In this document: piece after piece, positions 4,105 to 23,102 of the stretch
How positions within the stretch are numbered: the first letter of the stretch is position 1
How the letters are laid out: each line of letters opens with the position of its first letter
Virus record (IMG/VR): IMGVR_UViG_3300006802_000608
Span: 1-23,102 of that record
DNA: 23,102 nt
Direction: 5' to 3' (one strand)
DNA from: a virus
Made by a program: the position numbers and the translations under genes
Notes under the pieces: model-generated
Databases searched by the model: none
Seen by the model: only the letters and a program-made list of their open reading frames with translations
Told to the model about the DNA's origin: nothing

Positions 4105-4116
4105 TGCTATACTCTC

Positions 4117-7713: not shown

Positions 7714-7736
7714 GTTATACGTTCCTTTTACCTATG

Positions 7737-8321: not shown

Positions 8322-8323
8322 TA

Positions 8324-9238: not shown

Positions 9239-9300
9239 GAGCGGATTTCCTTTCTTCGCTTTAGCGGCTCAATGCGCGCTGTATAATGGCGGCAAATCGT

Positions 9301-9477: not shown

Positions 9478-9480
9478 AGT

Positions 9481-10482: not shown

Positions 10483-10552
10483 TGTTCACTTTCTTAGTTT
10501 AGGTAAGCGGGGGTTTGGGCGTGTGCCTACTCCCCCCTCTCACTGTAAGTCT

Positions 10553-10578
10553 CCACAGGGCATCCTGTACGCCTGTGG
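10553..10578 (-). other. Hairpin in the gap after the capsid gene
   Basis: In the 135-bp gap 10483..10617, CCACAGG at 10553-10559 pairs with CCTGTGG at 10572-10578, a 7-bp perfect stem with a 12-base loop. A second shorter palindrome (GGGCATCTGCCC) sits closer to the capsid stop. No run of T follows either stem in the reading direction, so a strong intrinsic terminator is unlikely. An RNA processing or 3'-end-protecting hairpin that separates coat expression from downstream genes is possible. No gene was found in the gap. Confidence 0.4.
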
Positions 10579-10617
10579 CGAGATTGCTACCTATCTTGGG
10601 CAGATGCCCGTGTTACG

Positions 10618-11523
10618 TCAGACACCAGGGCTGCCGAAGACACCACGAGGATCGGCCCAACCACTCGATTGTGCAAACATACCCGTGATCTTGTAGTCCT
10701 TGGTATCGAAGTCATACTCGTAGTCCGTCCAGAACTCTTCACGATCATACAGCAACAACTGATGGTCGCTCTTGTCCGAAAGGATAAACCAAGCATCAGG
10801 GTCAGTAAGGTAGTTCCATACCTGTACGCCCATGATGTCTTGCAGCGGGTTCGACGCATTGGTGTCGTTCTCGCTCACGAGGTTAGACTTAATGAGGCGA
10901 TGTGCCTCAAAACGCAGTTCCTTGGGCACAAGCAAGGTACGCGGCTCAATAGTCACGCGCTTGCCACCGCCATCACGGAAGTCACTGAAGTCAATCAGCG
11001 CCTGCTCAAGGGAGGTCTGCGAAAGGTCTGCCGCCGAGGACAACTCATTGGCAAAGGTGCTTCCATCTTCACGAACGTGATTGGTGGCAAACAACTCGAT
11101 GCCATCAGGTCCCGTGAAAGAGTTGCTAAAGCCGTTGTTGAAGTGATTGGCGAGGATCGTCTCCTCAGTAGCACGCGCACTGCGCGCCAACTCAACAGCG
11201 AGCTTCTCCATGGTGGCATACAGGTCATCACGCAACATATTGCGCGTTACCCGCATACCCGAACCATAGTCCAAGTGCGTGAAGGTGTTACGGAAGCCTT
11301 CATTGTTGCTAACGTAATCAATGGGCTGTCCTTCCAGCTTCTGCGACATAATGCCAACACCACCAATGGTCAGCGTATCTTCCTGATACTGTGAGCTTTC
11401 GCGCACATTGAAGATGTCACGGCCCACAACGGAACGCTCCATCCACTCATGGAAAATGACCAAATCGATGTCGCGCAGGGTAGCTGAAAAAGGAAAGCTA
11501 CCAATGGTATGAATACTAGCCAT
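10618..11523 (-). CDS. Major capsid protein, HK97-type (301 aa)
   Basis: The length, the position after scaffold and accessory gene, and the internal plan fit a phage coat protein. There is an N-arm; then KLEGQPIDYVSNNEGFRNTFTHLDYGSGMRVTRNMLRDD (E-loop and start of spine helix); then the long helix MEKLAVELARSARATEETILANHFN; then LFATNHVREDGSTFANE and SQTSLEQALIDFSDFRDGGGKRV. RTLLVPKELRFEAHRLIKS and the strand-rich C-terminus follow. The pattern VP-x-EL-x-F-x-A-x-RLIKS is common in the peptidase-free coat proteins of HK97-fold phages (Mu gpT-like in style). Start at 11523 with a strong ribosome site (AAAGGAGAT). It has no cleavage motif and no adjacent protease, so the coat probably assembles on the separate scaffold. 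Good confidence for coat, less for subfamily. Confidence 0.88.
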   Translation of the reverse strand: MASIHTIGSFPFSATLRDIDLVIFHEWMERSVVGRDIFNVRESSQYQEDTLTIGGVGIMSQKLEGQPIDYVSNNEGFRNTFTHLDYGSGMRVTRNMLRDDLYATMEKLAVELARSARATEETILANHFNNGFSNSFTGPDGIELFATNHVREDGSTFANELSSAADLSQTSLEQALIDFSDFRDGGGKRVTIEPRTLLVPKELRFEAHRLIKSNLVSENDTNASNPLQDIMGVQVWNYLTDPDAWFILSDKSDHQLLLYDREEFWTDYEYDFDTKDYKITGMFAQSSGWADPRGVFGSPGV

Positions 11524-11535
11524 TGTTTATCTCCT

Positions 11536-12087: not shown

Positions 12088-12119
12088 TATACTTTTCCTT
12101 TTAAATAACGAGACTACGC

Positions 12120-12149
12120 ATTATAAGGTGCGCGACCCTCGTTGGTCAG
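12120..12149 (-). promoter_or_regulatory. Candidate sigma70-type promoter before the capsid accessory and coat genes
   Basis: Read on the minus strand, CTGACC (12149-12144, four of six matches to the -35 box) is separated by 18 bases from a perfect TATAAT (12125-12120). The start of transcription would fall about 12113, some 25 bases before the accessory-gene ATG. It overlaps the last codons of the zinc-finger gene. It would give the coat and accessory genes an extra boost over the scaffold region. The -35 box is imperfect, so confidence is moderate. Confidence 0.45.
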
Positions 12150-12894
12150 TGATCGTTATACCCTCCCTTGCGCCAGGATCACCCATGGTAAAATTACCTT
12201 GCTGGTCACGTTGAGCACGATTTGCTACAGCACGAGCTACTTGCCCTGCTTTTTGCGAATCATGTCCCTTTGCTTTCATAGAGTCATAGACCAACTTCTC
12301 TATGCCTTCACGCTGCTGCTCATACGACTCCCGCGAAGCAGACAACTGGCGTTCCACGCGACTGCGCTTCTGCTTTTGTCTACGCTCGGCTAATGCTGCT
12401 GGAATACGCAATAGTGTCATCTCATTGGCGCGGATGCGATTATCTTCAGTAGATCCTTGCACCGCACGTAGGTCCGACCCTTTTGGCATATTCTCGATGA
12501 CTGCTCCTTGATCAAGCATACGCCTGACCTTATCAGGAGCCGCCCATCGAAGCACTGCACCGTTGCGCTCTGCATCTTTACGAGACTCCTCTGGGATATA
12601 CAGGGCATTAAAACGATCATACTCGTCTTGTAGCTGTATACCCGCTACGGCATGAGGAGACTCATCGGCTTTGTTAACCAATACGGGATTGAGCGAATCT
12701 TGCGCCATAGACATCGAACATTGCTGCGGATGCTTGGATCGCAAGTGATTCTTTAAGGCTTTGGGGTTTGCTTCTTCCCCTACACCCATGCGTGCGCCAC
12801 AAAATGGACACTCTTGGCCATCCGAACGCTCAAAGACATAATCTACACCCGCATTGATAATCTGCATCTCTTTGGGATCTTTGTTCTCGCTCAT
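12121..12894 (-). CDS. Head-module protein with C2H2-like zinc finger (257 aa)
   Basis: Near the N-terminus the sequence ECPFCGARM...LKNHLRSKH places C29, C32, H50 and H55 as a classical C-x2-C-x17-H-x4-H zinc site. After this the protein is mostly charged and helical (EEMTLLRI-type, AALAERRQKQKRSRVERQLSASRESYEQQREG), ending in a Gly/Arg-rich tail. It lies between scaffold and capsid accessory gene with a 1-base overlap to the scaffold stop. Some phage head genes include helical proteins of this size, but a zinc finger is unusual there. It may bind DNA or a partner during packaging or assembly; this is inference. Family not recognised. Confidence 0.75.
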   Translation of the reverse strand: MSENKDPKEMQIINAGVDYVFERSDGQECPFCGARMGVGEEANPKALKNHLRSKHPQQCSMSMAQDSLNPVLVNKADESPHAVAGIQLQDEYDRFNALYIPEESRKDAERNGAVLRWAAPDKVRRMLDQGAVIENMPKGSDLRAVQGSTEDNRIRANEMTLLRIPAALAERRQKQKRSRVERQLSASRESYEQQREGIEKLVYDSMKAKGHDSQKAGQVARAVANRAQRDQQGNFTMGDPGAREGITITDQRGSRTL

Positions 12895-13751
12895 TAGCCA
12901 TTCGCTCCACTGTGACGATTCAAGCTGATATCCATAAGACGTTTAGCCGTCTCAGGTTTCATGTTACGCAACCGACCAAAGTTACTTTTCCCAGGCTCCA
13001 ACGGGGGAGGTTCATTTAGTGGTGCACCGCTAGCTCCTGCGGATATGGGATTCTTGGGGCGCTCGGAGAAAGGTTTAATCTTACCTTGCTCCATCTCCTC
13101 AACCAACAATTCCGAGACATAAGCCTTTAAGTCACGAGGACGCGAGGCCAAGTCTGGGTATTGCTTTAGGGCCTGATTCAGTCTGACTTGTAACTCAGCA
13201 GACTGTGCAGGAGTAATCATGCCCTTCTTTTCCCACTCGGTAAACCTATTAGACGTACCAAAAGTAGAAGCAAGCTCGTCCATGACCCGCTTGTGCACCG
13301 CTTGATCACGCCGCGCCAATTCCTCTTTTGTAACAAGGTTGCCAGCCCTCTGAGCATACTGATGCTCAAAGTGCCTTTGCAATGTCTCGTACGCCTGTTT
13401 ACCTGCTTCATCATTGCCTAGCTGTTGGCGTATCAGTTGCTCAGTAGGGTCAGGTTTCGACTGCTGACTCTGGTCAACGGGCCTTTGTCTATCAGCTTGT
13501 GCTTTTAGCATTTGCTGCATCTGCTGCTGTAGGGCTGCGTCACGCGCCGCCCACTGAGCATCCCGTTGTTGAAACTGAGCTAGTTGCTGTTCATACGTGC
13601 GTGCCTTGTCATTGACCTCTTTAAAGCGGTCATATGGCACGCGATTATCTTGGCCCTCTGACGATGATGACGGGTCGCCTCCCGAACTTTCAGAGCCGTT
13701 TGGAGTGGACGAATCTCCATTATAATTTACGTCCCTAACAGCTTCTGACAT
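12894..13751 (-). CDS. Capsid scaffolding protein (285 aa)
   Basis: It has an acidic, Ser/Gly-rich N-terminus (SSTPNGSESSGGDPSSSSEG), then the phrase RVPYDRFKEVNDKAR common in phage scaffolds, then a long Gln-rich coiled coil (QQLAQFQQRDAQWAARDAALQQQMQQML). A helical domain follows (TEQLIRQQLGNDEAGKQAY...RDLKAYVSELLVEEM), then a basic C-terminus (NFGRLRNMKPETAKRLMD), the usual coat-binding end. Length, charge layout and position upstream of the coat gene support scaffolding: it would form the temporary core of the procapsid. No protease motif is seen. The ATG at 13751 is preceded by CTAAGGA. Confidence 0.82.
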   Translation of the reverse strand: MSEAVRDVNYNGDSSTPNGSESSGGDPSSSSEGQDNRVPYDRFKEVNDKARTYEQQLAQFQQRDAQWAARDAALQQQMQQMLKAQADRQRPVDQSQQSKPDPTEQLIRQQLGNDEAGKQAYETLQRHFEHQYAQRAGNLVTKEELARRDQAVHKRVMDELASTFGTSNRFTEWEKKGMITPAQSAELQVRLNQALKQYPDLASRPRDLKAYVSELLVEEMEQGKIKPFSERPKNPISAGASGAPLNEPPPLEPGKSNFGRLRNMKPETAKRLMDISLNRHSGANG

Positions 13752-13769
13752 TCCTTAGCTCCAGGTTGA

Positions 13770-13907
13770 TTAGTACTGCTTGGCGGGGTCTTTATGACCG
13801 CACGAACCGCTCTTTTTGGCTTTAGCTGACTTGCCGCCCGTCTTGCCTTTGTCAGACGCCTTGCGCGGCTTTGCATTGCTATAGCTCTTATTTCCCGACC
13901 AGTCCAT
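13770..13907 (-). CDS. Tiny Lys/Gly-rich basic protein (45 aa)
   Basis: An ATG at 13907 overlapping the preceding stop (TAATG), with GGAG 8 bases upstream, opens a 45-codon frame. It begins MDWSGNKSYSNAKPRKASDK, has a Lys/Gly-rich middle, and ends SGSCGHKDPAKQY. It is strongly basic with almost no hydrophobic residues, so it is probably disordered and able to bind nucleic acid or acidic proteins such as the scaffold. It fills the gap between the 84-aa gene and the scaffold gene. It may be an assembly or DNA-condensing peptide; function unknown. Confidence 0.7.
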   Translation of the reverse strand: MDWSGNKSYSNAKPRKASDKGKTGGKSAKAKKSGSCGHKDPAKQY

Positions 13908-14161
13908 TATCTGATCTCCTCTGCTACTTGGTTATTGTGTAAAACAGCGGCTTGCTCACGCAAGCGCACCGTCACGGATGTTGGCAACGATAATCCTGCC
14001 GCATCTGCTAAAGCAGTGAATACCGTTAACCACTGCATGGGTTTCAAATCGTGCCATACGATTGAAGGTTCCCCATTCTTTAACGAGACAAAGGCGAATG
14101 GCCCTTGACTCACCATATTTCGCACTACCTGATCTTTTACTTCTCTTGGAAGGTCAGCCAC
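13907..14161 (-). CDS. Unknown small protein (84 aa)
   Basis: The sequence MADLPREVKDQVVRNMVSQG is followed by FAFVSLKNGEPSIVWHDLKPMQWLTVFTALADAAGLSLPTSV. It appears to have an N-terminal helix, a two-stranded segment and a C-terminal helix pair. It is not recognised. Start at 14161 overlaps the stop of the 77-aa gene by 8 bases and its stop overlaps the next ATG, so it is embedded in the portal-to-scaffold string of small genes. Probably assembly related by position only. Confidence 0.7.
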   Translation of the reverse strand: MADLPREVKDQVVRNMVSQGPFAFVSLKNGEPSIVWHDLKPMQWLTVFTALADAAGLSLPTSVTVRLREQAAVLHNNQVAEEIR

Positions 14162-14387
14162 TTAGCGCATCCTCTTGCTCGTTTTGCAATCGTGTAATGA
14201 CACGATCAATGCCATCGGTGAGGCCCGTGTGATACTGTATCTTACCCAAGTCTCCTGCACGAGCCGCTGCGCGTAATCCCTCGACCTCTTTAACTGCTAC
14301 CTCGCGCATAACATTAACGAAGACGTTAAAGTATGGGTTGGTAAAGAAGTCTCTCTTGGCTCTACTTAGCCTGTCCTGCTCACTCAT
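14154..14387 (-). CDS. Small helical protein after the portal (77 aa)
   Basis: Starts at ATG 14387 with AGGGG six bases upstream (a TTG two codons earlier is less likely). The protein is almost wholly helical: RLSRAKRDFFTNPYFNVFVN, VMREVAVKEVEGLRAAARAG, KIQYHTGLTDGIDRVITRLQNEQ. Short helical proteins of this kind are often encoded just after phage portals. Some have been proposed to act in packaging or head assembly, but none can be named here. It shows an 8-base overlap with the next gene. Confidence 0.7.
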   Translation of the reverse strand: MSEQDRLSRAKRDFFTNPYFNVFVNVMREVAVKEVEGLRAAARAGDLGKIQYHTGLTDGIDRVITRLQNEQEDALSG

Positions 14388-14402
14388 CCACAACCCCTGA
14401 TG

Positions 14403-14762
14403 TTATTTGTAATAATCATAGGTAGAGTTTTGGCCACCCGAATCCCCAAGATTGTTTAAACCCATATAATTGTTCGGACGCGATTGTCCAATCCTGCCTT
14501 GCGTTGCCATCATCATTGCAATGATCTGCTGTAGCATCTCAGGATCCATGTTATTAGCATAGCCTTGCATCGGGCCGATTGACGCTGGCAATGCTTGAGG
14601 TGCAAATCCTTTTGAGCCCATATCATAGTTGGGGAGTTGCATACCTTGGTCCTGCATTCTTGCACTGTTATTTGGGCCAGATGCATCATTTGGCCTTGAA
14701 GGAAAACTCATCCTTTCAATTGGTGACATACCCATTCTCATTTGATTATCATAATTTGGCAT
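14403..14762 (-). CDS. Unknown Met/Gln/Asn-rich protein after the portal (119 aa)
   Basis: The sequence is low in complexity and rich in Met, Asn, Gln, Pro and Gly (MPNYDNQMRMGMSPIERMSF, then GFAPQALPASIGPMQGY). It contains one helical hydrophobic stretch, EMLQQIIAMMMATQGRIGQ. That stretch resembles the repeated IAALMMGTQGQLPY motif of the 626-aa repeat protein at the other end of the structural region. It starts 2 bases after the portal stop. It is probably disordered apart from that helix. Not recognised as a family. The shared motif suggests both proteins may bind the same partner; this is inference. Confidence 0.65.
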   Translation of the reverse strand: MPNYDNQMRMGMSPIERMSFPSRPNDASGPNNSARMQDQGMQLPNYDMGSKGFAPQALPASIGPMQGYANNMDPEMLQQIIAMMMATQGRIGQSRPNNYMGLNNLGDSGGQNSTYDYYK

Positions 14763-14764
14763 CG

Positions 14765-17083
14765 TTACGCCCCTAATGATTGTAGGTTAGGTGGACCTTG
14801 ACCGTTGCTAGCGGCGGGGGACTGATTAATGTCACCCATCGCACCCATCTGACCCACGCCTTGTAGCTGTGCTACGTTATTGGCGGTAGGCTGCTGTTGT
14901 GCTTGTCCAGGTGCTTGACCTTGACCTTGTTGTTGCATTGCCGCCATAGCTTGTTGCTGTTGCATCATCATCTTTTGCTGCTTGGACTGCACATGCTGTT
15001 GTAGGTGAAGCATGTATCCTTGTAGGTTAGGACTGCCCATAGCCTGATACGACTCTGACTGTATGTGCGCCATGTGGCCCTGTAAGTGCTCATCGTCATT
15101 GTCATTAGGATGCACTGGTGCAGGAGCGTCACGGCCATAGACCATCTGATCCATCTCGCCGTTTTCCTCTTCCCAATCTTTTGACACCCCTTTAGACAAC
15201 GCTTCTCTTGGACCAATAAACTGTTGCGGTGTGGGTATGTTTATGGCTTGTAGGTAAAAGTTTTCTACTTCCCATCGCTTGGCAGGATCGTTCATAATGA
15301 TGGGCGAGTTGGCAGCAAGTTGTAAAAGCGCATTGCCCTGCTCCTGCCGTAGCATCGAACCATATAACCCTGCATTAGCACCAAGCCTAAAGTCATATTC
15401 ACCGCGCATCCATAAGTCTTTACGCGATAGCTTCTGCGTCAAAGGCCCCTCATTGCCTTCCAGACGTATCATCCTATACTCAGGGCCATACTGTAACTCC
15501 ATGTTATACGCCATCTTACACATGAAGCCAAACGCCTCCGAGTCCTGATTCAGCATCTCCGAGGTGCGCGCCATAGACTCTTGCTGCGTGCCGACAAAGC
15601 CTGTAGCGTGTCGCGCTGCTGCGCCCCGCGTAGGAGACATGCCCAGAAACAAATCCGTGACGCCCATCACGCGCTCTACCAGCGTGTAGAGTAGCTGCTC
15701 TTCTTGTGCATAGAATCCCGTGACATTCTGCAACTGCGGGAAGCGCACATCATTAACGTCATCTACAGGAACACCCTTGAGAGGACGCAATTGTATCTTC
15801 TCAGGATTTAAGGTGGACGTAGCACGATAAAAGAAGAAGGGCATGTTAGTGGCAAAGCCAATGTCCATGCGTAGGTTGTGTATCGTATCTAACTCAGCAC
15901 TCAGGGGCTTGGCGACCTCCATGACGCCCATCGACCACCACCGCGTACCTACGCGCTGGTAGTGCAACTCCAAGAGAGGACGCTGATTGCGCCATGCAAT
16001 GTCACTGAGGCGGTATGCGCCAAGGAGGAACTGAGGCTGTAGGCAGGCAAAGAAAACGCATTCTGTCCACTCCTTCTCGCCCTCCTCATTCTCCAACTCC
16101 CACGGCATAAACCACATCACCGTCTCAAACTCAGGGTTGGGCCTTGCGTTGGGTGTCTTACGGGTAGAGAGCGCACGCTGCGTGCCCTCATGCCTGTCTT
16201 GTGCTTTGACCCTGCGCTGGTTATCTGAGGTGATGGAATCGCCTGAACGATCTTGAGCAGGAGCCTTCTTTATCCACCACTCTTTGTCGCTCGTCTCTGT
16301 ATCGTCCAAGATATAGCCATACGCTTCATTCCTGCGCTGCCAGATGTAAGAGAGCGTCTGCCATTGGCGAATGCCCACGTAATCTGAGCCACCAGGGTTT
16401 GATGGCGTGAGTGGCTGTAGGTTTAATCCCTCTTGACTCTTAATGAGATCATCCCACTCCACAGGGTGCAGCACAGGGCCATCATACTTAATCTCACGCT
16501 GGAGAATAGTCTCTTCCTCGCGCCGTACTACCAACTCGCCATCGACATCAATCTGTGGCGTGCCGTCAGGATTAAAGAGGATAGCTGGTGCGGAGGTGGG
16601 CTGTTTTGCGCGGTAGGTGTATTCATCGGTGACGTAGGAGAAGATACCCACTCCCACGCCGTGTATGCATCGGTTTTTAGAGATCAAAGACCACATCTGG
16701 CGAGCATTCATGCGTGCAGGCTGTAAGTGCCAATCGACTAGCTTACAGGCATCATCAAAGATGGCTTGATCGTCATCCTCTTCCGCTTTACCAGATACCA
16801 AAGGCGTCTGACCCCACACAGAAGAGACTAAGCGTGTGTTAATAGAGTCAACTAACCAATAGGGCATCTGCACATGGAGATTAGAGCTATTGGGCCATGG
16901 GCCAGTGCGTCCATCATCCAACTTGCCCCTGAACATATTGTCATAGGCAATGTGCTGCTCATTTAACTTAGTGCGCTCTTCTATTCGATCTCTGTATAGA
17001 TGGGCAATAGAAGTAAGGATCTCTTCTTTTTCCTCATCATCTAAATCTAATAGTTCTGGCGCTGGAAAGTCTGGATTAGCCAC
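14765..17083 (-). CDS. Portal protein, P22-like large type (772 aa)
   Basis: This is the longest gene here, with the layout of large podovirus-type portals. The N-terminal region includes RIEERTKLNEQHIAYDNMFRG and ACKLVDWHLQPARMNARQMWSL. A membrane-free middle has strands such as WDDLIKSQEGLNL and a Trp-rich wing (VMWFMPWELENEEGEKEW). Then comes the clip/stem region with HATGFVGTQQESMARTSEMLNQDSEAFGFMCKMAYNMELQYGPEYR, and a long Gln-rich helical C-terminus resembling a barrel (LQQHVQSKQQKMMMQQQQ). The portal forms the dodecameric ring for DNA entry and exit and docks the terminase. It starts with GTG at 17083 (AAGGA just upstream), close behind a promoter. The C-terminal Gln run is longer than in most portals. 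Confidence 0.85.
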   Translation of the reverse strand: MANPDFPAPELLDLDDEEKEEILTSIAHLYRDRIEERTKLNEQHIAYDNMFRGKLDDGRTGPWPNSSNLHVQMPYWLVDSINTRLVSSVWGQTPLVSGKAEEDDDQAIFDDACKLVDWHLQPARMNARQMWSLISKNRCIHGVGVGIFSYVTDEYTYRAKQPTSAPAILFNPDGTPQIDVDGELVVRREEETILQREIKYDGPVLHPVEWDDLIKSQEGLNLQPLTPSNPGGSDYVGIRQWQTLSYIWQRRNEAYGYILDDTETSDKEWWIKKAPAQDRSGDSITSDNQRRVKAQDRHEGTQRALSTRKTPNARPNPEFETVMWFMPWELENEEGEKEWTECVFFACLQPQFLLGAYRLSDIAWRNQRPLLELHYQRVGTRWWSMGVMEVAKPLSAELDTIHNLRMDIGFATNMPFFFYRATSTLNPEKIQLRPLKGVPVDDVNDVRFPQLQNVTGFYAQEEQLLYTLVERVMGVTDLFLGMSPTRGAAARHATGFVGTQQESMARTSEMLNQDSEAFGFMCKMAYNMELQYGPEYRMIRLEGNEGPLTQKLSRKDLWMRGEYDFRLGANAGLYGSMLRQEQGNALLQLAANSPIIMNDPAKRWEVENFYLQAINIPTPQQFIGPREALSKGVSKDWEEENGEMDQMVYGRDAPAPVHPNDNDDEHLQGHMAHIQSESYQAMGSPNLQGYMLHLQQHVQSKQQKMMMQQQQAMAAMQQQGQGQAPGQAQQQPTANNVAQLQGVGQMGAMGDINQSPAASNGQGPPNLQSLGA

Positions 17084-17119
17084 ACAAATCCTTTTTAGGC
17101 AAAAGAGTCCTTTAGGTGG

Positions 17120-17148
17120 ACAATATACTTATCAAAATTCTTTGTCAA
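17120..17148 (-). promoter_or_regulatory. Strong sigma70-type promoter before the portal gene
   Basis: On the minus strand a perfect TTGACA (17148-17143) is followed either after 17 bases by TATTGT (17125-17120) or after 15 bases by TATATT (17127-17122). The spacer is AT-rich. Transcription would start near 17113, about 30 bases before the portal GTG. This is the only sizeable AT-rich gap inside the minus-strand operon, and it sits between a helix-turn-helix gene and the portal. It would start a separate transcript for the head genes using the host RNA polymerase. Confidence 0.65.
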
Positions 17149-17156
17149 CATATTTT

Positions 17157-17342
17157 TTATTTAGCAATTTTTTTTCTTGCAGAGGGCGTCAATAGGCCGT
17201 ATTGCTTGCAGAGCCTCCTAAACGTACTGGGCGCTATGCCTAACGCTTTAAAAGCGTCGGCATCCGTATAGTACATCCTACATACGCGCTCCATTTGTTT
17301 CTTAGAGACAGCATCTTTAACTACAGTTGATTTAATCGACAT
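17157..17342 (-). CDS. Small helix-turn-helix protein (61 aa)
   Basis: The protein has a basic N-terminus (MSIKSTVVKDAVSKKQMERVCRMYY), then a clear helix-turn-helix pattern (ADAFKALGIAPSTFRRLCKQYG), ending in Lys-rich residues. This resembles the DNA-binding domains of small phage regulators and of terminase small subunits. It overlaps the GroES-like stop by 11 bases and its own stop comes just before the promoter for the portal. It could regulate that promoter or act as the packaging-site recogniser. Nothing decides between the two. A length near 60 is short for a terminase small subunit, which usually has an added oligomerisation part. Confidence 0.6.
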   Translation of the reverse strand: MSIKSTVVKDAVSKKQMERVCRMYYTDADAFKALGIAPSTFRRLCKQYGLLTPSARKKIAK

Positions 17343-17622
17343 ATGCCATGATCTCCTCTTCGGCTAACAGTAGATACCATGCATCATTGATCTTTACCTC
17401 CGTTCCTGCCCACTGAGGCACAATAGCCAGCCGATCTATCTCTATGTCTTGACTAACGTCACGCCCCTTCTGTAATATCCTCGCTGTCTGTGGAGGCCTC
17501 ACTGCGCTGTCGGGAATCATTATCCCGCCCTGCGTCTCCTCCTCCCACTCGCCATCCCGCTGTAACAACACCCTCTTGCGTAACGGCTTCACCTCCATGC
17601 CTATCTGCTCTATCAGGTCCAT
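17332..17622 (-). CDS. GroES-like co-chaperonin (96 aa)
   Basis: The plan matches GroES. The opening strand VKPLRKRVLLQRD corresponds to the I-RPL-DRV-V-R strand. The mobile-loop region EEETQGGIMIPDSA corresponds to the T-GGI-(hydrophobic)-(hydrophobic)-P-S segment that contacts GroEL. The strand TARILQKGRD corresponds to the G-V-A-G segment. The segment VKINDAWYLLLAEEEIMAYVD corresponds to the end with E-EVLIM-E-DI-A-V. Length (96) is the same as bacterial GroES. No GroEL is visible, so it should act with the host GroEL, as T4 gp31 does, to help fold a coat too large for normal GroES. The start at 17622 has GAGGAG upstream. It lies within 5 kb of the coat gene. It overlaps the preceding gene by 164 bases. 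Confidence 0.8.
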   Translation of the reverse strand: MDLIEQIGMEVKPLRKRVLLQRDGEWEEETQGGIMIPDSAVRPPQTARILQKGRDVSQDIEIDRLAIVPQWAGTEVKINDAWYLLLAEEEIMAYVD

Positions 17623-17878
17623 CGGGCTTCTCCTCAATTAAGTTGTTAAGGCGCAAGAAAGCTACGATCTGCGGCCATACGCCTGCCATATGCAAAAGAT
17701 ATTTGGCTTCTTCCTTTTGCTCTGCCGAGCCAAAGAGGGCCTGCTCAACTAACGTCATTCTAAACTTGGTCTTGAATTCTTGGTCTGTAGGATCGCCCTT
17801 GTGCTTATTCAGCCACCCTTCCTCCTCCATCTCGGCCACCGACCAATCAATAGACTTCCATAAGTCACCAAACGTCAT
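17459..17878 (-). CDS. Unknown protein overlapping the co-chaperonin (139 aa)
   Basis: The N-terminal two thirds look like a normal protein (MTFGDLWKSIDWSVAEMEEEGWLNKHKG, then VEQALFGSAEQKEEAKYLLHMAGVWPQIVAFLRLNNLIEE) and are helical. From about residue 87 the composition changes to Gly/Asp/Arg/Ser, because this tail is read out of frame within the GroES-like gene (164-base overlap). The ATG at 17878 has GGGATAA upstream. Its function is unknown. Its place between the nuclease/glycosyltransferase region and the head genes would fit a small packaging or regulatory protein, but no motif supports that. A stop right after NNLIEE would be expected, so a lost stop or an indel is possible. Confidence 0.6.
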   Translation of the reverse strand: MTFGDLWKSIDWSVAEMEEEGWLNKHKGDPTDQEFKTKFRMTLVEQALFGSAEQKEEAKYLLHMAGVWPQIVAFLRLNNLIEEKPDGPDRADRHGGEAVTQEGVVTAGWRVGGGDAGRDNDSRQRSEASTDSEDITEGA

Positions 17879-17897
17879 TTATCCCAACTTTTCATCG

Positions 17898-18638
17898 TTA
17901 ATACCCCGTTATGCTGGATGGCTGATGTGTATGCGTGTCCTCGCTGTGCATATTTAAACTTGATGCCCCCGATGATCGCTCTAACCCCATAACAGCTAAC
18001 CATAGCGCCTTGCATACTGTTACCCGTGCACCACGCACGCCTGCTTGGGTTTGTAAGGTCGGTATATCGTAAGGAAACATAAGCCTGTATATTGGCTCGG
18101 CATCTACGCCATAAAGCGTCATGCCCGAATGAGGGTCTGTTGCCTCCGCACTCAGCACTAACTCCAAGTCACGGTGCATCTCATTCTCGTCAGGTATGTT
18201 CAGGGTGCGCGGGTATGCAGTGTGCATAATGTGCACAAACGTGGGCCAACGGCTTTGCGCTACGCCAGGCGTTAAGCCATTATAGTGAACCAAACCATCT
18301 GTTCGCCGCAACGCCTCTACTTGATCGGCAGGGCTTGACGCGCTGTACATGTATTGCGCTAAATACTGGTCTTTCCATTCAATTAGCTTGGGAAACATAC
18401 GCGCAGGCACGGATTGCTCAAACTCGTCCAAAACAACATAGATACGCTCACTGCGACCATTATGCTCATATACGCGCTCTCCTACGGCCACAGCAAACGA
18501 TGGGGTGTCCAGACAGACACCAATCGCCACACGCCTAAACTTCATCTCCAACGGCTCGTTGGCGTTGCGTCCTACCTGATGCTGATATATGAGTTTAACC
18601 CATCCATTGGGCAGAGGTGAGGCTACTAAGAAACGCAT
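17898..18638 (-). CDS. Unknown protein (246 aa)
   Basis: Mixed alpha/beta protein starting MRFLVASPLPNGWVKLIYQH with an opening strand-turn-strand. It then has MKFRRVAIGVCLDTPSFAVAVGERVYEHN, RIYVVLDEFEQSVPARMFPK and a helical part LIEWKDQYLAQYMYSASSPADQVEALRR. No motif of a known enzyme is evident. The C-terminal 30 residues (SSGASSLNMHSEDTHTHQPSSITGY) are polar and probably disordered. It starts 3 bases before the glycosyltransferase stop and is followed 19 bases later by the next gene. It may work with the glycosyltransferase by neighbourhood only. Confidence 0.7.
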   Translation of the reverse strand: MRFLVASPLPNGWVKLIYQHQVGRNANEPLEMKFRRVAIGVCLDTPSFAVAVGERVYEHNGRSERIYVVLDEFEQSVPARMFPKLIEWKDQYLAQYMYSASSPADQVEALRRTDGLVHYNGLTPGVAQSRWPTFVHIMHTAYPRTLNIPDENEMHRDLELVLSAEATDPHSGMTLYGVDAEPIYRLMFPYDIPTLQTQAGVRGARVTVCKALWLAVMGLERSSGASSLNMHSEDTHTHQPSSITGY

Positions 18639-18641
18639 GAT

Positions 18642-19529
18642 TTATCTTTTTTTAGCCCCCTTTTGTCTCCTTCGCCGCGTGTTTTGGCTTCTATTGGGTC
18701 TATTTCCTTGGTTTTTACCAAAATTGCCAATGATAGGGCCGTTTAAATCCAGCGGAGGCGGCGCAGGCGGCACCCCTTCTATTATAGTAGACACCTCTGA
18801 TGCAACCGCCATCCGATTTTCCTCAACAGGTGCTTGACGCGATTGCGATTGCAAGTACTGTGCGCCAAGGGCGGCAAGCTGTGTCATGGGCACTAACTCC
18901 GTGATGTTCACCTCGCGTGCATGGGCACACACGTAGGTAGGCAGCACCGTGACGCCCCCTGCCTTAGCGCAGAAGGTGAAATCTTCTCCCACGCGCCTTC
19001 CCTCCACGTAATCAAAGACAAACCATAGCTTTTTTTCATCCCGTATGCGCTCTAAGACGGGCCTTCGGACGACCATGCACCCTGTGCCTGCCGCATCTGC
19101 GCGAAATGTCTCCATCTCATCTGCGCCCTTCTTTTCGGGCCTCCATTCTTCAGGCTTAAAGAACCGATAGGCTCCTTTCCTCAAAGGCTGTTCGCCCTCT
19201 GCCGCCTCTTGGCGGTATACCTGATAGTTTGCGCCTATCTGTGGGTGATAATGGCCATATAATCCCGCTACGACCTCTCCCTCCACCTTCAGTATCTCAT
19301 CCGACTCTGGGGGCGTTACGTCTGAGTCAATCATCCACAGGACATCTGCATCCGACTCTAAGAAGAGCGCGACCATCTCGTTGCGTGTCTCGCATACGCC
19401 TGCGGTTTGGTAATAATAGGAGACATCCCATTCGGGGTGGGCCTTGCCTGCCCAATGCAACCAGGAAGCCAATCCTCTGTCAATCGGTCCGTGGGTGGGT
19501 ATCCGCACCATTACTTTTTCATCATGCAT
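18642..19529 (-). CDS. GT-A type glycosyltransferase (295 aa)
   Basis: The protein begins MHDEKVMVRIPTHGPIDRGL, the first strand of a GT-A fold. NEMVALFLESDADVLWMIDSD follows, where DSD (residues 68-70) is the metal/nucleotide-sugar site. RADAAGTGCMVVRRPVLERI and GEDFTFCAKAGG...VCAHAREV continue the standard order: GTG loop, acidic catalytic GED, His near the end. A retaining or inverting mechanism cannot be told. A C-terminal tail rich in Pro then Arg/Lys (PNRSQNTRRRRQKGAKKR) is unusual and could bind DNA or the host surface. It would add sugar to a phage or host molecule (virion protein, DNA base or lipopolysaccharide). Start at ATG 19529 has GAGGAG six bases upstream; a longer start at 19565 is possible. 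Confidence 0.8.
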   Translation of the reverse strand: MHDEKVMVRIPTHGPIDRGLASWLHWAGKAHPEWDVSYYYQTAGVCETRNEMVALFLESDADVLWMIDSDVTPPESDEILKVEGEVVAGLYGHYHPQIGANYQVYRQEAAEGEQPLRKGAYRFFKPEEWRPEKKGADEMETFRADAAGTGCMVVRRPVLERIRDEKKLWFVFDYVEGRRVGEDFTFCAKAGGVTVLPTYVCAHAREVNITELVPMTQLAALGAQYLQSQSRQAPVEENRMAVASEVSTIIEGVPPAPPPLDLNGPIIGNFGKNQGNRPNRSQNTRRRRQKGAKKR

Positions 19530-19590
19530 GATGAGCTCCTCGTCGATAGGCGTGTTCATCTGCATCTAGGGTATTGGTCGATTCACTCAT
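19522..19590 (-). CDS. Possible 22-codon linking peptide
   Basis: An ATG at 19590 overlaps the terminase-nuclease stop (ATGA). It opens a 22-codon frame, MSESTNTLDADEHAYRRGAHHA, which ends 8 bases inside the glycosyltransferase. The position fits reinitiation after the nuclease and coupling to the glycosyltransferase. The peptide is polar with a His-rich end. It has no ribosome site of its own at a good distance. It may be only a coupling device, or chance. Confidence 0.25.
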   Translation of the reverse strand: MSESTNTLDADEHAYRRGAHHA

Positions 19591-20162
19591 GGCAGTATCG
19601 CTGCACTCCTTGCGTGTAGGGTGGGTGAGAAAGATGGGTGATAGACATGAGAGTCCGAGCCTGTCGCGCCCATCAGCGCCATGGCCGTTGCCACGGTAGC
19701 ATCTACGGGTCTTGACTGCTGAGACTTAATCAGGCGCGGTCCTCGCTCCGTCTCTTTGATGGCCGTCTGCACGAAGTGTGAGCGCAGATCCGCGTCCTTG
19801 CAGAGCAGGAACGTGCGCTCATCACAGTGCGACTTGAGGGTGGCACAGGCCGTAGTCATCATCGTTAACTGATTCACCTCCTCCAACAGCGCCCCATAGC
19901 CCTCCTCAATCAGGCGCTGACGGGTGGTTAGAAACTGCGAGGGGTCGTAGTAGATGGCGGCGATGCGCTGTGTCTTGAGCAGCTTGATGATACATGGCTC
20001 CACCTGTGTGATCATGTTTACAGGGGGCGTAAAGATCTTTATCCCCCACATCTTAAAGATGCCCATCTCATAGTCGTGGTATACCGCAGCGATAGCTGAG
20101 GTGTCCCGCTTGATACCGATATCTATGCCCACATGAAGGATAGGATCTACGTTACGGTTCAT
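19587..20162 (-). CDS. Terminase large-subunit nuclease domain, stand-alone (191 aa)
   Basis: The protein is the RNase H-like half of a packaging terminase. Motif I is ILHVGIDIGIKRDTSA (Asp14). Motif II is IAAIYYDPSQFL (Asp73). Motif III is RPVDATVATAMALMG (Asp154), in the usual spacing. Between them lie EEVNQLTMMTTACATLKSHCDER and DADLRSHFVQTAIKETERG, the segments found before the last motif in large terminases. It cuts DNA at the start and end of packaging. No ATPase half (Walker A, Walker B) is present here or in the neighbours upstream, and the protein starts exactly at the nuclease strand, so the subunit seems split. The last 22 residues are Ser/His-rich. ATG at 20162 overlaps the stop before it. 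Confidence 0.8.
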   Translation of the reverse strand: MNRNVDPILHVGIDIGIKRDTSAIAAVYHDYEMGIFKMWGIKIFTPPVNMITQVEPCIIKLLKTQRIAAIYYDPSQFLTTRQRLIEEGYGALLEEVNQLTMMTTACATLKSHCDERTFLLCKDADLRSHFVQTAIKETERGPRLIKSQQSRPVDATVATAMALMGATGSDSHVYHPSFSPTLHARSAAILP

Positions 20163-20437
20163 TGCACTTTACTGTGTATGATAAAGAGGTCCTTGGCCCT
20201 GAGCCAGCAGGAGCGCGGCACGCCCTCCCTATGTATCAGGTCATGCAACGTGTTTTTCATGGCCAGCAAGGGCGGGTGTATCCTGCGCTGCTCTGCATAG
20301 ACCCATCCAAGGAGTATACGAACCCCTATATACTGCTCACCGCCAATGTATTTAAACGCACCAAAAGGCTCTATGCGCTCTATCGCGCCGACCTGTATGC
20401 TTTGAGCCTCTATGGGCTTCCTGTAATGGATCGTCAC
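20159..20437 (-). CDS. Unknown small protein upstream of the terminase nuclease (92 aa)
   Basis: Starts with GTG at 20437, overlapping the preceding stop (GTGA), with GGGAG upstream. It begins with TIHYRKPIEAQSIQVGAIER and has a beta-rich first half (IERIEPFGAFKYIGGEQYIGVRILLGWV). A basic helix follows (QRRIHPPLLAMKNTLHDLIHREGV), ending in LRAKDLFIIHSKVQ. No known motif. Its stop overlaps the ATG of the terminase nuclease. It could be a packaging partner only by position. It does not contain a terminase ATPase motif. Confidence 0.65.
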   Translation of the reverse strand: MTIHYRKPIEAQSIQVGAIERIEPFGAFKYIGGEQYIGVRILLGWVYAEQRRIHPPLLAMKNTLHDLIHREGVPRSCWLRAKDLFIIHSKVQ

Positions 20438-20850
20438 TTCTGGATCTCCCGCATGAGGTCATCGGTGCGGTCTATAATGCCTTTGACGTTACGCTCCTGC
20501 ATGATCTCCCTGTACTTACCCGTAGCGTGGGCAAGCTCACGCGCCACCTGCTCAAACTCCATGCGCTCAAGGTGTATATCGTGTATCCCATGCTCCTTGC
20601 CCACGTTAAGCTCAGGTACCTGCATGGTGTGGTTCTCCTGAAACCACAACTGGCCAAACATAATCATATAGTGGTGACAAAGCACTGAGTCGAGTTCAAA
20701 GAAGGTCCTGCGCGGGTTCTTCGCCTTTATAAAGATGTATTGGTCAGGAAGGGGCACGCCTGATGTCTCGTGGCCCTTAACACCATACCAAGCATTTAAC
20801 TCAATCGCATCAAAAGACTTCACCTGCACCGTGGCTCTACCGTTCAGCAC
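20434..20850 (-). CDS. Unknown protein (138 aa)
   Basis: Starts with GTG at 20850 (GGAG seven bases upstream), overlapping the previous gene by 14 bases. The N-terminal half is beta-rich (TVQVKSFDAIELNAWYGVKG, QYIFIKAKNPRRTFFELDSV) with a hydrophobic aromatic stretch (MIMFGQLWFQEN). The C-terminal half is helical (RMEFEQVARELAHATGKYREIMQERN, RTDDLMREIQK). No known family recognised. The mixed layout resembles small adaptor proteins; no role can be given. Confidence 0.65.
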   Translation of the reverse strand: MLNGRATVQVKSFDAIELNAWYGVKGHETSGVPLPDQYIFIKAKNPRRTFFELDSVLCHHYMIMFGQLWFQENHTMQVPELNVGKEHGIHDIHLERMEFEQVARELAHATGKYREIMQERNVKGIIDRTDDLMREIQK

Positions 20851-21040
20851 CGTGTAGCTCCTTCCACTCTAATAGTCGATTTAAGTCCACCTCAGTATAG
20901 ATGTAGGGCGCACCGCGTGTGGCGTGCGTGTCACGCTCTGGCGTGATGATGCCCTTGAGCACCTTATCCTTGACCCACCACTCCGAGCGCCCCGTCAAGC
21001 GCGCCATCTCCTTGAGACTAATCCTCTTTGCTTCGTGCAT
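20837..21040 (-). CDS. Helix-turn-helix protein, excisionase/MerR-like (67 aa)
   Basis: The segment ISLKEMARLTGRSEWWVKDKVLKG is a helix-turn-helix of the winged type used by excisionase and MerR-type proteins. IITPERDTHATRGAPYIYTEVDLNRLL follows, giving the wing strands and the final helix that such proteins use. It may recognise a DNA site for packaging or regulate the operon. The start at 21040 overlaps the previous gene by 23 bases. It lacks the extra parts of a true phage excisionase, and no integrase is visible. It could also serve as a small terminase-like DNA-binding component; this cannot be decided. Confidence 0.7.
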   Translation of the reverse strand: MHEAKRISLKEMARLTGRSEWWVKDKVLKGIITPERDTHATRGAPYIYTEVDLNRLLEWKELHGAER

Positions 21041-21197
21041 AGATCAGTATGTTGTGATAAGGGATGGCGATAATAGTATCAACTAGGTCAATCTCTGCGC
21101 CCCAACCATACAAATATATTGGACCATCTTTACAGTGGTGCTCTCTATAGCCATTATTTGCCATATAGCCTATCCACCTCACCTCAACAGGTTCCAT
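21018..21197 (-). CDS. Unknown small protein (59 aa)
   Basis: The ATG at 21197 comes directly after the sulfotransferase-like stop and has a G-run upstream at a workable distance. An alternative start at 21221 (67 aa) has a better ribosome site (GGAGG) but overlaps the preceding gene. The protein is beta-rich (VEVRWIGYMANNGYREHHCKDGPIYLYGWGAEIDLVDTIIAIPYHNILIYA), with regular short strands like a small beta-barrel. No known motif. It ends with RSKED. The role is unknown. Confidence 0.6.
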   Translation of the reverse strand: MEPVEVRWIGYMANNGYREHHCKDGPIYLYGWGAEIDLVDTIIAIPYHNILIYARSKED

Positions 21198-21198
21198 C

Positions 21199-21774
21199 TT
21201 ATTTGCCCCCCTTATCTTCATTGATCTCCTCCATATGCTGTAAGCAGTCCGACTCCCTGGCACGTATCACAGAGGAGGCGGCGTGGGTATCGAAGTCCAC
21301 TATACCTAATAGATACTGCCCCACATCGTAGGCGACTCGTAAGGGATCACCAATAAGGGCCTCAAAGGACACGATCAGCACAGGACCTAACGACGATAGC
21401 ACGGAGAGGGCGTAGGTCCTATCGGCAGATAGGCTACCCTCCCATCCCTTGAGGTAAGGCACATCGCGCTTGAGCCTGTGTATCAAGAACTTACGCTGTG
21501 ACTTGACCTGCTGCTGTATGTTCCTGTCCATCCAGATAAAGCGGTACGCGTATTTGGGAGAGGGTTGATAGATCTGTGGGTCTAATATCTTCAATGCCTT
21601 GCCCTTGGCTTGCTCCAAGAAGCTCGACTTTTCAGGTAGGCCCAAGACCCTCTTGCTCTCGTAGAAGACAGGAGTATGGGTATATAAGGGCATACCGCCT
21701 GCTTCCAGCATCTGCATCATAGCCGAAGAGCCACAGCGCCCTAACCCACTCACCACGACAATCTCCTCACTCAC
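21199..21774 (-). CDS. Sulfotransferase-like P-loop protein (191 aa)
   Basis: The first strand and loop, EIVVVSGLGRCGSSAMMQML (GRCGSS at 12-17), match the 5'-phosphosulfate-binding loop of the sulfotransferase family. Later YRFIWMDRNIQQQVKSQRKF carries the Arg and Ser spaced as in the 3'-phosphate-binding segment (R..Q..S). The protein has the shape of the compact versions seen in some marine phages. A role in sulfating a phage surface molecule, a host sugar or a small molecule is possible, but the substrate is not visible. Another P-loop enzyme is possible. A possible catalytic base is uncertain. It overlaps the zinc ribbon stop by 8 bases. Length is shorter than classical sulfotransferases. 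Confidence 0.65.
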   Translation of the reverse strand: MSEEIVVVSGLGRCGSSAMMQMLEAGGMPLYTHTPVFYESKRVLGLPEKSSFLEQAKGKALKILDPQIYQPSPKYAYRFIWMDRNIQQQVKSQRKFLIHRLKRDVPYLKGWEGSLSADRTYALSVLSSLGPVLIVSFEALIGDPLRVAYDVGQYLLGIVDFDTHAASSVIRARESDCLQHMEEINEDKGGK

Positions 21775-21964
21775 GCCCTATCTCCTCTCGCACTAACCGC
21801 TGTAGCACCTCGCTCAACTCCCACCACCCTTCCGTCTTTTTCTCCTCCACAGGGACAGTCTCCACCGTAACGATAGACTCATTACATGAGACACAGCGGC
21901 GGTAGCGCTTATCCCCATGCTTGCTCTTTACCCGCGTATCCCCACCGCACGTTGGACACTTCAT
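21767..21964 (-). CDS. Four-cysteine zinc ribbon protein (65 aa)
   Basis: The start MKCPTCGGDTRVKSKHGDKR leads to RRCVSCNESIV, with cysteines at 3, 6, 24 and 27 (CxxC-x17-CxxC). It is a zinc ribbon of the kind at the N-terminus of NrdR-like regulators and many small phage proteins. The rest (VPVEEKKTEGWWELSEVLQRLVREEIGRE) is a charged helix. It probably binds nucleic acid or a protein partner. It lies between the Dam-like methyltransferase and the sulfotransferase-like gene. Ribosome site is weak. Its exact role is unknown. Confidence 0.75.
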   Translation of the reverse strand: MKCPTCGGDTRVKSKHGDKRYRRCVSCNESIVTVETVPVEEKKTEGWWELSEVLQRLVREEIGRE

Positions 21965-21970
21965 ATTTAT

Positions 21971-22402
21971 CTAAAGTATAAAGGCCGCTATATGGCGACC
22001 TGTTCCTTTCCCCTGTTTCCCATCTTCAATAGCACACCATTTAACATCACCAAGGTTTTCAACCTGCGCTCCTGCTGCCAACAGCATTAAGACCCATTTA
22101 TCAATGGGGTAAACCATGACAACTCTCTTACCCCTACCACTCTCTTCAATGGCTTTACGCGCCCATGCCGTAGGGCCTTTTTTACGGCCCTGATGCATTA
22201 TACTACCAAAAGGTGGATTGACATAAGTGCTATTGCCCCACTCAGATGTCAAACCATCGAAATCATTTGGCTTGGGATAAGGACAGGCATCAAAATCAAA
22301 ATCAAAACGATCTTGAAGTGCTTGCATTAACTCTGGGGGCGTAAGCCAGTAATGTCTGCCGTCAGATGCTCCCTTATGAAATTTGTTATCTTTAGGTTCC
22401 AT
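21971..22402 (-). CDS. Phage Dam-like DNA adenine methyltransferase (143 aa)
   Basis: The sequence has the hallmarks of small phage N6-adenine methyltransferases. HYWLTPPELMQAL is the usual W-x-TPP opening. FDFDFDACPYPKPNDFDG follows. Then EWGNSTYVNPPFG carries NPPF (62-65) as the catalytic motif, in the D/N-P-P-Y/F class. The segment WARKAIEESGRGKRVVMVYPIDKW is a typical helix-strand of the fold. It would methylate adenine in phage or host DNA using S-adenosyl-methionine, possibly to escape restriction. The start at 22402 has GGGG just upstream. It is the first gene of the minus-strand operon seen. Length is at the short end for the family. Confidence 0.8.
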   Translation of the reverse strand: MEPKDNKFHKGASDGRHYWLTPPELMQALQDRFDFDFDACPYPKPNDFDGLTSEWGNSTYVNPPFGSIMHQGRKKGPTAWARKAIEESGRGKRVVMVYPIDKWVLMLLAAGAQVENLGDVKWCAIEDGKQGKGTGRHIAAFIL

Positions 22403-22413
22403 ATCGCCCCAAT

Positions 22414-22622
22414 TGCTGTATCTGTAAACGCATTGCTATCACTAAAATTACTAACCCCGTATTTTGAGACACCCATTGCTGTATCTGTAAAGCGCCCACC
22501 GCTAAGATATGCTGTATCTGTAAAAGGTGCAAGTGCTATATGCGCCGTAGAGGGGGATAGTGTAGTAACTTAGTCGCTGTGTGTGAAAGGGAGTGTAGCA
22601 GATTAGTCGCCGCGTATGAAAG
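22414..22622 (-). repeat. Degenerate repeats with alternating 33 and 63 bp spacing
   Basis: On the minus strand, CTTTCATACGCGGCGACTAA (22622) and CTTTCACACACAGCGACTAA (22589) are followed by three exact TTTACAGATACAGCA copies (22524, 22491 and 22428). The steps are 33, about 63-65, 33 and 63 bp, so the higher-order period is about 96 bp. A weaker copy (TTTTAGTGATAGCAATGCG) fills the last long step. Translated, the units give 11-residue repeats such as FTDTAYLSGGR and LSHTATKLLHY, though the two halves are in different frames. They may be binding sites or the decayed end of a repeat protein gene. Confidence 0.65.
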
Positions 22623-22639
22623 TGGGTCCCTACTTCTAC

Positions 22640-22674
22640 GCTTTCTGACGAAAGCCCCCGTGGCCCGTGGGGGC
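22640..22674. other. Two overlapping hairpins
   Basis: GCTTTC (22640-22645) pairs with GAAAGC (22650-22655) around a TGAC loop. The next stem, GCCCCC (22654-22659) with GGGGGC (22669-22674), shares its first two bases with the first stem, so the two exclude each other. On the minus strand the GC stem is followed by TTTCGT, a weak terminator-like end. This could be a terminator or a two-state RNA switch; the T-run is too short to be sure. Confidence 0.4.
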
Positions 22675-22770
22675 GAGGGGAGGGGGGCTACATCTCGCCT
22701 TGTTAAGCTGTTAAAGCGGGCCAGCGCCGCATGGCCACAGCGCACAACATGCTGTTATCACTACACTTGC

Positions 22771-22832
22771 GCCGCGCCGCGCCGCGCCGCGCTGTGGGCT
22801 GTGCTGTGCGTGTGCGCTGTGGGCTGTGCTGT
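22771..22832. repeat. GCCGC tandem repeat followed by a 25-bp direct repeat
   Basis: Four GCCGC units in a row (22771-22790) are followed by two copies of GCTGTGGGCTGTGCTGT (22791-22807 and 22816-22832), 25 bp apart. The sequence is strongly GC-rich and purine/pyrimidine-biased, unlike the genes around it. No gene is supported here. Confidence 0.8.
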
Positions 22833-22938
22833 ACACCGCGCCTTACGCCTTACACGCTACTATTACGCACACCTACAGTCTGCATGCATGCTATATACCC
22901 ATAGCACAATTTATTTACTCCCCGCTAAAAAACCCCCC

Positions 22939-22967
22939 TTGACTTATACCCATGAGTATCGTATTAT
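22939..22967 (+). promoter_or_regulatory. Strong sigma70-type promoter for the plus-strand gene
   Basis: TTGACT (22939-22944, five of six matches) and TATTAT (22962-22967, five of six) are separated by 17 bases. Transcription should start near 22974. The 9-mer TATACCCAT occurs both in the spacer (22945) and upstream at 22894, and TATACCCGC follows at 22971, so an operator overlapping the promoter is plausible. It reads into the 21-codon leader and the methylase-like gene. Confidence 0.7.
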
Positions 22968-23005
22968 TAATATACCCGCAGTACTTAACCTACGGAGCTA
23001 ATCCC

Positions 23006-23071
23006 ATGTATACGATAATACCACAAAGGAAAAGGCATAACGATGCGCGTACTTGTTGCTTGCGAGTGTAG
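23006..23071 (+). CDS. Possible 21-codon leader peptide overlapping the methylase start
   Basis: An ATG at 23006, with GGAG 8 bases upstream, opens the short frame MYTIIPQRKRHNDARTCCLR followed by one Val codon and a stop at 23069-23071. It overlaps the methylase-like ATG (23043) in another frame. It may couple or limit translation of that gene. It could also be an accident, because the methylase has its own ribosome site. Confidence 0.35.
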   Translation: MYTIIPQRKRHNDARTCCLRV

Positions 23072-23102
23072 CGGAAAAGTGCGCCGCGCTTTTAGAGCGC
23101 TA
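23043..23102 (+). CDS. Start of a DNA cytosine methylase-like gene, cut by the window edge
   Basis: The 20 codons seen, MRVLVACECSGKVRRAFRAL, match the typical start of a phage/bacterial DNA methylase family (MRVLVACE-x-SG-V-R-AF-x-x-x-G), in which the strand plus the CE-x-SG loop forms part of the S-adenosyl-methionine site. Most members are listed as cytosine-specific DNA methylases. AAGG lies 7 bases before the ATG. It is read divergently from the Dam-like gene. Only the first 60 bases are in the window, so function rests on this short match. Confidence 0.6.
   Translation, partial: MRVLVACECSGKVRRAFRAL

Follow-up and report, generated by a model that had tools for sequence, protein, structure and literature searches.

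The viral contig examined here, IMG/VR record IMGVR_UViG_3300006802_000608 (positions 1 to 23,102; this whole stretch of 23,102 nucleotides is called the window below), carries a gene for a 191-residue protein that corresponds to the nuclease part of the phage large terminase subunit (TerL). The ATPase and nuclease domains of TerL are normally found in one protein. The gene runs from 20162 to 19587 on the minus strand in an open frame of 193 codons, with only two further codons open upstream of its ATG; an in-frame upstream half of TerL is therefore impossible. In PHROGs the protein matches the TerL family phrog_9 (E 6.5e-9) at profile positions 485-663 of 812, that is, at its nuclease end only. 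Asp14, Asp73 and Asp154 are invariant in all nine aligned nucleases, as are Lys18 and Asp20, at identities of 37-62% between the window nuclease and its eight aligned relatives, and only five residues precede the first conserved motif (DP). The window nuclease itself has no Pfam match; a relative with 58% identity to it (L002) scores above the cut-off of Pfam TerL_nuclease PF20441 (27.5 bits vs 24), and a PDB search with the profile of the nine nuclease relatives retrieved HK97 TerL (6z6d, residues 383-497, E 0.0011). The gene encodes a TerL nuclease subunit and no whole TerL, since the two domains expected of a large terminase do not share one polypeptide here.

A first-pass annotation of this DNA had described the same nuclease-only open reading frame (ORF) with exact coordinates, leaving the strand unstated, and had placed the three Asp motifs where the alignment now has them. 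Its observation that the genes upstream lack a Walker motif also agrees with our scan, in which none of the 76 window ORFs of at least 60 aa contains the strict Walker A pattern (G4xGK[ST]), and no ATPase was found in the window. Two loose Walker A matches were noted, in a plus-strand ORF at 8811-9329 and in a 285-aa ORF at 12894-13751.

An ATPase gene was found in relatives of the window. In the first of these, contig G001, whose nuclease is 58% identical, a separate gene at the far end of the contig matches the ATPase region of phrog_9. We collected 22 records by portal or capsid searches and screened them for both TerL halves: the nuclease half occurs in 11, the ATPase half in 7 and both in 5 (G001, G003, G007, G010 and G011), each half in its own open frame and flanked by other genes. 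The contig G002 is 99.94% identical to the window (positions 3943-23102 of its reverse complement) over 19,160 bp and extends past the left end of the window. Its ATPase gene (G002 23196-24179, 327 aa, ATPase only) starts 4.0 kb outside the window, on its left side, at a distance of 23.6 kb downstream from the nuclease gene; because G002 begins downstream of the nuclease, the pairing of the two halves rests on contig overlap. The nuclease precedes the ATPase in transcription order by 20.5 kb in G001, 22.6 kb in G003 (where the contig end cuts the nuclease) and 26.1 kb in G007, and the ATPase comes first, 15.9, 16.9 and 18.8 kb before the nuclease, in G010, G011 and G023, respectively.

The ATPase halves retain a Walker A motif PKK(S/E)(G/A)KT, a Walker B motif FDE(L/M)W and the coupling motif TTYAG in all six aligned rows. 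They match phrog_9 at positions 198-338 (G002) and 201-335 (G001), with weak extra matches at 421-472 in G007 and G011; the nuclease halves match from 479-483 onward, and from 485 in the window, and the break therefore lies at the domain linker. The best structural match of the AlphaFold model of the ATPase (predicted local distance difference test, pLDDT, 74.5; predicted TM-score, pTM, 0.75) is HK97 TerL residues 1-225, with Z 17.7 over 215 residues at a root-mean-square deviation of 3.4 and a Foldseek E of 7.7e-6. The P74-26, Sf6 and T4 terminases follow at Z 14.3-15.1, and the first non-terminase row has Z 12.9. No TerL of the phrog_2 or phrog_38 type was detected in 9 records, PF03237 gave no match in 2 records, and the records searched yielded no further TerL. 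A scan of genome contigs for the ATPase family returned 20 pattern matches, none of them a relative. By tblastn against 50,697 phage records, neither the window nuclease (up to E 1) nor the G001 ATPase (E up to 0.01) had a match. The G011 nuclease matched 9 records weakly (E 0.08-0.5), and the G011 ATPase matched 102 records, down to E 2e-4 among the matches listed, at annotated TerLs, among them the TerLs of Paenibacillus phages and of phiC31; we take these weak matches to be the remote fused family.

Deeper scans yielded 55 ATPase loci and 41 nuclease loci. We classified 91 loci, L095-L185, several of which stem from the same phage or record. A nuclease match is present in 81, as a fused-type ORF in 51 and as a stand-alone ORF in 30; one of the latter, L107, was scored as split from the ORF alone, its contig ending 208 bp later. 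Both domains are matched in one ORF at 40 of the fused-type loci, and the other 11 (L174 and L176-L185), in which the ATPase profile has no match, were assigned by ORF length (>400 codons) only. The end of the ATPase match and the start of the nuclease match are 8-35 residues apart in the 39 two-domain ORFs measured, so the split forms are broken at the domain linker. Comparison of the split and fused nuclease sets by hhalign gave a probability of 100%. Before trees of both domains were built, identical sequences were removed, as were L146 (ATPase tree), ATPase pieces <220 aa and nuclease pieces <120 aa. One branch with support 100/100 parts 16 split from 25 fused rows in the ATPase tree and 20 split from 35 fused rows in the nuclease tree, and addition of the window and L002 to the latter changed the count to 22 versus 35 with the same support. 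The window gene belongs to a split group within an otherwise fused TerL family, and a single split from a fused ancestor would explain the trees; the fused state is taken as ancestral because it is the common one. Nei-Gojobori ratios of nonsynonymous to synonymous substitution (dN/dS) are 0.05-0.10 for the nuclease, 0.12 for the ATPase and 0.09-0.18 for the neighbouring gene c9 described below. These come from 7 of 10 gene pairs, 6 of them with dS >1, as saturated dS gave no ratio in the other 3. Both TerL halves are under purifying selection.

In a sister group (10 loci from 9 records, L105 and L153 being one), the halves are only 0.8-2.5 kb apart, with other genes between them. The gaps contain the small gene c21 (Table 1), a 153-aa gene and variable cargo, which at L104 1956-3221, L155 4881-6469 and L175 2808-4369 includes a C5 methylase, a protein with a CxxxCxxC stretch and unknowns. 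A homing gene was considered as the cause of the split: a Pfam scan of five gap proteins gave a single match, to the C5 DNA methylase of L104, and no homing endonuclease. A homing gene may still have brought about the original event. The most diverged split nuclease in the trees is L170 3337-4398. Its record, G024 (41 kb), has the ATPase 257 bp from the right end and the nuclease 3.8 kb from the left end, so that on a circular map perhaps about 4 kb would separate the two. Among the fused relatives, L146 4270-7533 is a 1087-aa ORF in which two long insertions, intein-like in size, interrupt the ATPase part.

The first-pass annotation had judged the halves to be probably two distinct genes, the ATPase being encoded in another part of the genome. 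This reading holds, as G002 and six other records contain an ATPase-only TerL gene, but it overlooked a second nuclease-fold protein, c9, encoded close by. It had named a fused protein in relatives and a sequencing error as observations that would speak against it. Close relatives are split, although more distant ones are indeed fused in frame; sequencing error fails as an explanation, as contigs from different data sets all show the split and both halves are under purifying selection.

Table 1. Genes of the window around the stand-alone terminase nuclease
Feature	Position	Strand	Remarks
c21, small protein upstream of nuclease, conserved in split relatives	20434..20850	minus	138 aa; no significant Pfam or PHROG family
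Stand-alone TerL nuclease, HK97/phrog_9 type	19587..20162	minus	191 aa; Asp14/Asp73/Asp154
Glycosyltransferase-like gene between nuclease and c9	18642..19565	minus	only some relatives have one
c9	17898..18638	minus	246 aa; predicted terminase-nuclease/RuvC (RNase H) fold; C-terminal ITGY
GroES-type co-chaperonin	17332..17637	minus	phrog_3188, E 6.8e-11
Portal / head-tail connector, proposed docking partner	14765..17083	minus	phrog_332, E 6.3e-8
Major capsid protein, Mu gpT-like; search anchor	10618..11523	minus	PF10124

The nuclease gene lies near the start and the ATPase gene near the end of a late gene cluster, with one further late gene after the ATPase in G001-G003, and the nuclease is upstream of the portal in the mapped records. 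The shared gene order is compatible with a single map, circular or permuted, of about 43 kb; from it we infer a circle with the probable order nuclease, c9, portal, capsid, tail, large virion proteins, ATPase and mostly opposite-strand genes, leading back to the nuclease.

The protein c9 has no significant Pfam or PHROG match, and tblastn of the phage records found none up to E 1. With its AlphaFold2 model (alignment of 11 sequences, pLDDT 76, pTM 0.77), Foldseek ranked the PhiV-1 terminase first (E 1.2e-4, TM 0.40) and the SPP1 nuclease next (4.9e-3). After re-alignment, Z scores to terminases were 11.8 (D6E TerL), 11.7 (herpes simplex virus, HSV, pUL15), 11.6 (SPP1 G2P), 11.5 (G20c) and 10.0 (HK97); the fowlpox resolvase (Z 12.1) and RuvC (Z 11.2) tie with these, with somewhat fewer residues aligned than most terminases. 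We thus predict for c9 an RNase H superfamily fold as in TerL nucleases, and the tie leaves the choice between a terminase-like and a RuvC-like form unsettled. Homology of c9 to terminase nucleases by sequence was rejected, as hhalign probabilities stayed at or below 18.2% in every comparison: 2.2% against the nine nucleases, at most 18.2% against C-terminal regions from four TerLs with GY tails (E 0.0013 in one of these comparisons) and, with larger sets in local mode, 0.1-4.0% against TerL nucleases and 0.1-0.5% against four unrelated controls. The case for c9 therefore comes down to its predicted fold, its tail and its place.

Acidic residues of c9 were compared in 27 sequences. In the first strand, positions 36-43 are never acidic; after the strand, an acid is found at 44 in 24 sequences, at 45 in 16 and at 101 in 11. 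Around the start of the last helix, the site of a TerL Asp, no column of 202-213 is acidic in more than three. Acids at 72, 90, 108, 114 and 168 are present in all 27. On this pattern c9 appears to have lost the TerL-type Asp triad and is probably inactive as a nuclease, and another active site is possible. The gene occurs in 23 of the 24 split loci with at least 1 kb available downstream of the nuclease, the lone split locus without it being L162 (4.5 kb available), and in none of the 45 such fused-type loci. As the split loci form one clade, this co-occurrence counts as one association rather than many.

All 38 c9 proteins with a complete end (22 distinct over the last 200 residues) terminate in GY, 36 as TGY, one as SGY and one as AGY. 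Across the 91 loci, 26 of 1990 ORFs of at least 100 aa have a GY end, and 23 of these are c9; the 22 TGY ends all belong to c9. No nuclease-matching ORF ends in GY, either among the 50 with >400 codons or among the 31 shorter ones, a few of which are cut by contig ends. For comparison we used 21 TerL or TerL-part proteins, whose phages had come up through similarity of capsid or TerL or served as references. Five of them have a GY end: TGY in MW202796, vB_Af_QDWS535 and MW202785, SGY in vir526 and IGY in MW202426.

We consider it very likely that an HK97-type TerL is split at the linker in this phage, the 191-aa protein being its catalytic nuclease half, with the ATPase half in a separate gene and both acting in trans. 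Several results weigh against this. In 9 of the 22 records, which are 4.1-16.5 kb long, phrog_9 detected neither TerL half. Both the window and G002 are fragments, assigned to one phage by the 99.94% overlap of two contigs. Pfam TerL_ATPase PF03354 matched in 0 of 8 records, the ATPase being below its detection, and a PDB sequence search with the ATPase profile returned no terminase. No small terminase was identified, and the trees are without a fixed root, so that the fused ancestor leans on the fused state being common. That a frameshift, a misassembly or a contig break parted an ordinary fused TerL nevertheless has a negligible chance of being correct. The window is indeed a 23.1-kb fragment with the ATPase outside it, and the two adjacent TerL pieces of MW202785 may be such an artefact, its relatives EBPR podovirus 1 and CV-1-33 having fused-length TerL genes; here, by contrast, the frame before the nuclease ATG closes after two codons, both halves are flanked by other genes and contigs of different data sets show the same split.

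Rejoining of the halves by a trans-splicing intron or a split intein is hardly more credible. Introns and inteins in terL are known, as in Campylobacter phage IBB_35 (PMC3322345), the long insertions of L146 lie in the ATPase part of a fused relative, and the nucleases of G011 and L170 have N-terminal extensions when read from the first start. The window nuclease, however, has just its five residues before the conserved DP and the G002 ATPase ends three residues past its last invariant position (M324 of 327), and these short ends therefore leave no room for intein pieces; nor did the window, L078 or L102 give any Rfam match at the gathering threshold, group I introns included. Somewhat less improbable, though still distinctly so, is a nuclease that has left packaging, for instance to serve as a resolvase. 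The ATPase would then package DNA alongside a different cutter or, like phi29, with none. Separate genes permit independent roles, and c9, which has a predicted RNase H fold and several invariant acids, could be the other cutter. Against this, the nuclease gene has kept its place upstream of the portal in the mapped records, its closest sequence relatives are TerL nucleases, as the hhalign comparison of split and fused sets indicates, and the records searched contain no other TerL nuclease.

If the two halves of a split TerL do act in trans, they would meet at the portal and assemble into one motor, in which the ATPase would translocate DNA and the nuclease would make the initiating and terminating cuts. 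Less certain is a part for c9 in joining motor and portal. It could be a docking subunit: its predicted fold is that of a nuclease, its tail is of the TerL type and its gene is close to that of the portal. A split motor would depend on such a subunit, since a GY tail is lacking in both the stand-alone nuclease and the ATPase. The terminase might then comprise three pieces, the ATPase, the free catalytic nuclease and c9, the last a pseudonuclease derived from a TerL nuclease domain with a portal-docking TGY tail; we regard this as possible but unlikely, and it is weakened because the invariant acids of c9 leave room for an active site. In such an arrangement c9 would keep the motor attached to the portal while DNA is pumped, the active nuclease joining only when a cut is to be made. 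Capsid relatives have TerL adjoining or near the portal gene, of the phrog_2 or phrog_38 type in the four tested, unlike the HK97-type split TerL; c9 may descend from a former podoviral TerL of this capsid lineage in a putative TerL replacement.

HK97 TerL (phrog_9; PDB 6z6d) resembles the two halves in the ATPase match to residues 1-225, the nuclease profile match to 383-497 and the same motif set, but it is one chain (514 residues in the sequence record), whereas the window's group has two genes 16-26 kb apart. Kitkat, an Arthrobacter phage (KU647627), has separate annotations for a TerL ATPase domain and a TerL nuclease domain (genes 4 and 11), with six genes between them, and a 2017 paper reports two TerL-related genes in cluster AT (PMC5513430). 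The Kitkat halves, however, are of the phrog_38/phrog_2 type, only 1.9 kb apart and both upstream of the portal, unlike the phrog_9 TerL of the window. For phi29 gp16, a published account (PMC7672431) describes a C-terminal vestigial nuclease with an RNase H/TerL-nuclease fold without active site, thought to keep a non-catalytic role in the motor. With its predicted fold and probable inactivity, c9 would be similar in these respects, but the phi29 domain is fused to the ATPase and phi29 is not known to have an active terminase nuclease, whereas c9 is a separate gene next to a nuclease gene with the full triad. The TerL of MW202796, a podophage with a related Mu gpT-like capsid, has a C-terminal TGY and its gene lies directly upstream of the portal gene, c9 being a few genes upstream; it differs in being fused (502 aa), of the phrog_38 type and without significant sequence similarity to c9. 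MW202785 was set aside as a precedent for a stable split on account of the fused-length genes of its relatives EBPR podovirus 1 and CV-1-33. Caulobacter phage RW was likewise rejected as the same split. Its two TerL coding sequences (L207 689-3491, with a methyltransferase between them) both have an ATPase P-loop and therefore look like a duplication, apparently a full TerL plus an extra ATPase-only paralogue. Among the matches listed from open-licence PMC papers, we found none on a split HK97-type TerL or a separate pseudonuclease. A split TerL is already known from Kitkat in another TerL family; new are the HK97 type, the position of the halves far apart in the late cluster and the linked nuclease-fold protein c9.

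Pumping and cutting normally depend on two active sites that share one chain with the portal contact, which leaves their coordination inside the terminase an open question. Here motor, cutter and possibly a docking module are separate proteins, each of which could be removed, mutated or titrated alone, and a three-piece terminase, if real, would make cutting and pumping separable by gene. The arrangements seen (fused, split with genes between, and split far apart) suggest a route by which a fused TerL can break up. Phage surveys based on the terminase may score such genomes as having no terminase or two.

Several minor features of the window were also recorded. An imperfect tandem duplication at 2970-3267, with two 154-bp copies that are 89.6% identical, lies within a 637-aa ORF (1842-3755), and overlapping alignments suggest a difference in repeat copies in the counterpart of this ORF between the near-identical contigs G003 and G017. 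Upstream of the nuclease, the gene at 21199-21774 has a GLGRCGSS loop with a sulfotransferase-like match below the Pfam cut-off and no terminase motif, and the gene at 21971-22402 encodes a Dam-type DNA adenine methyltransferase (PF05869, E 6.2e-7).
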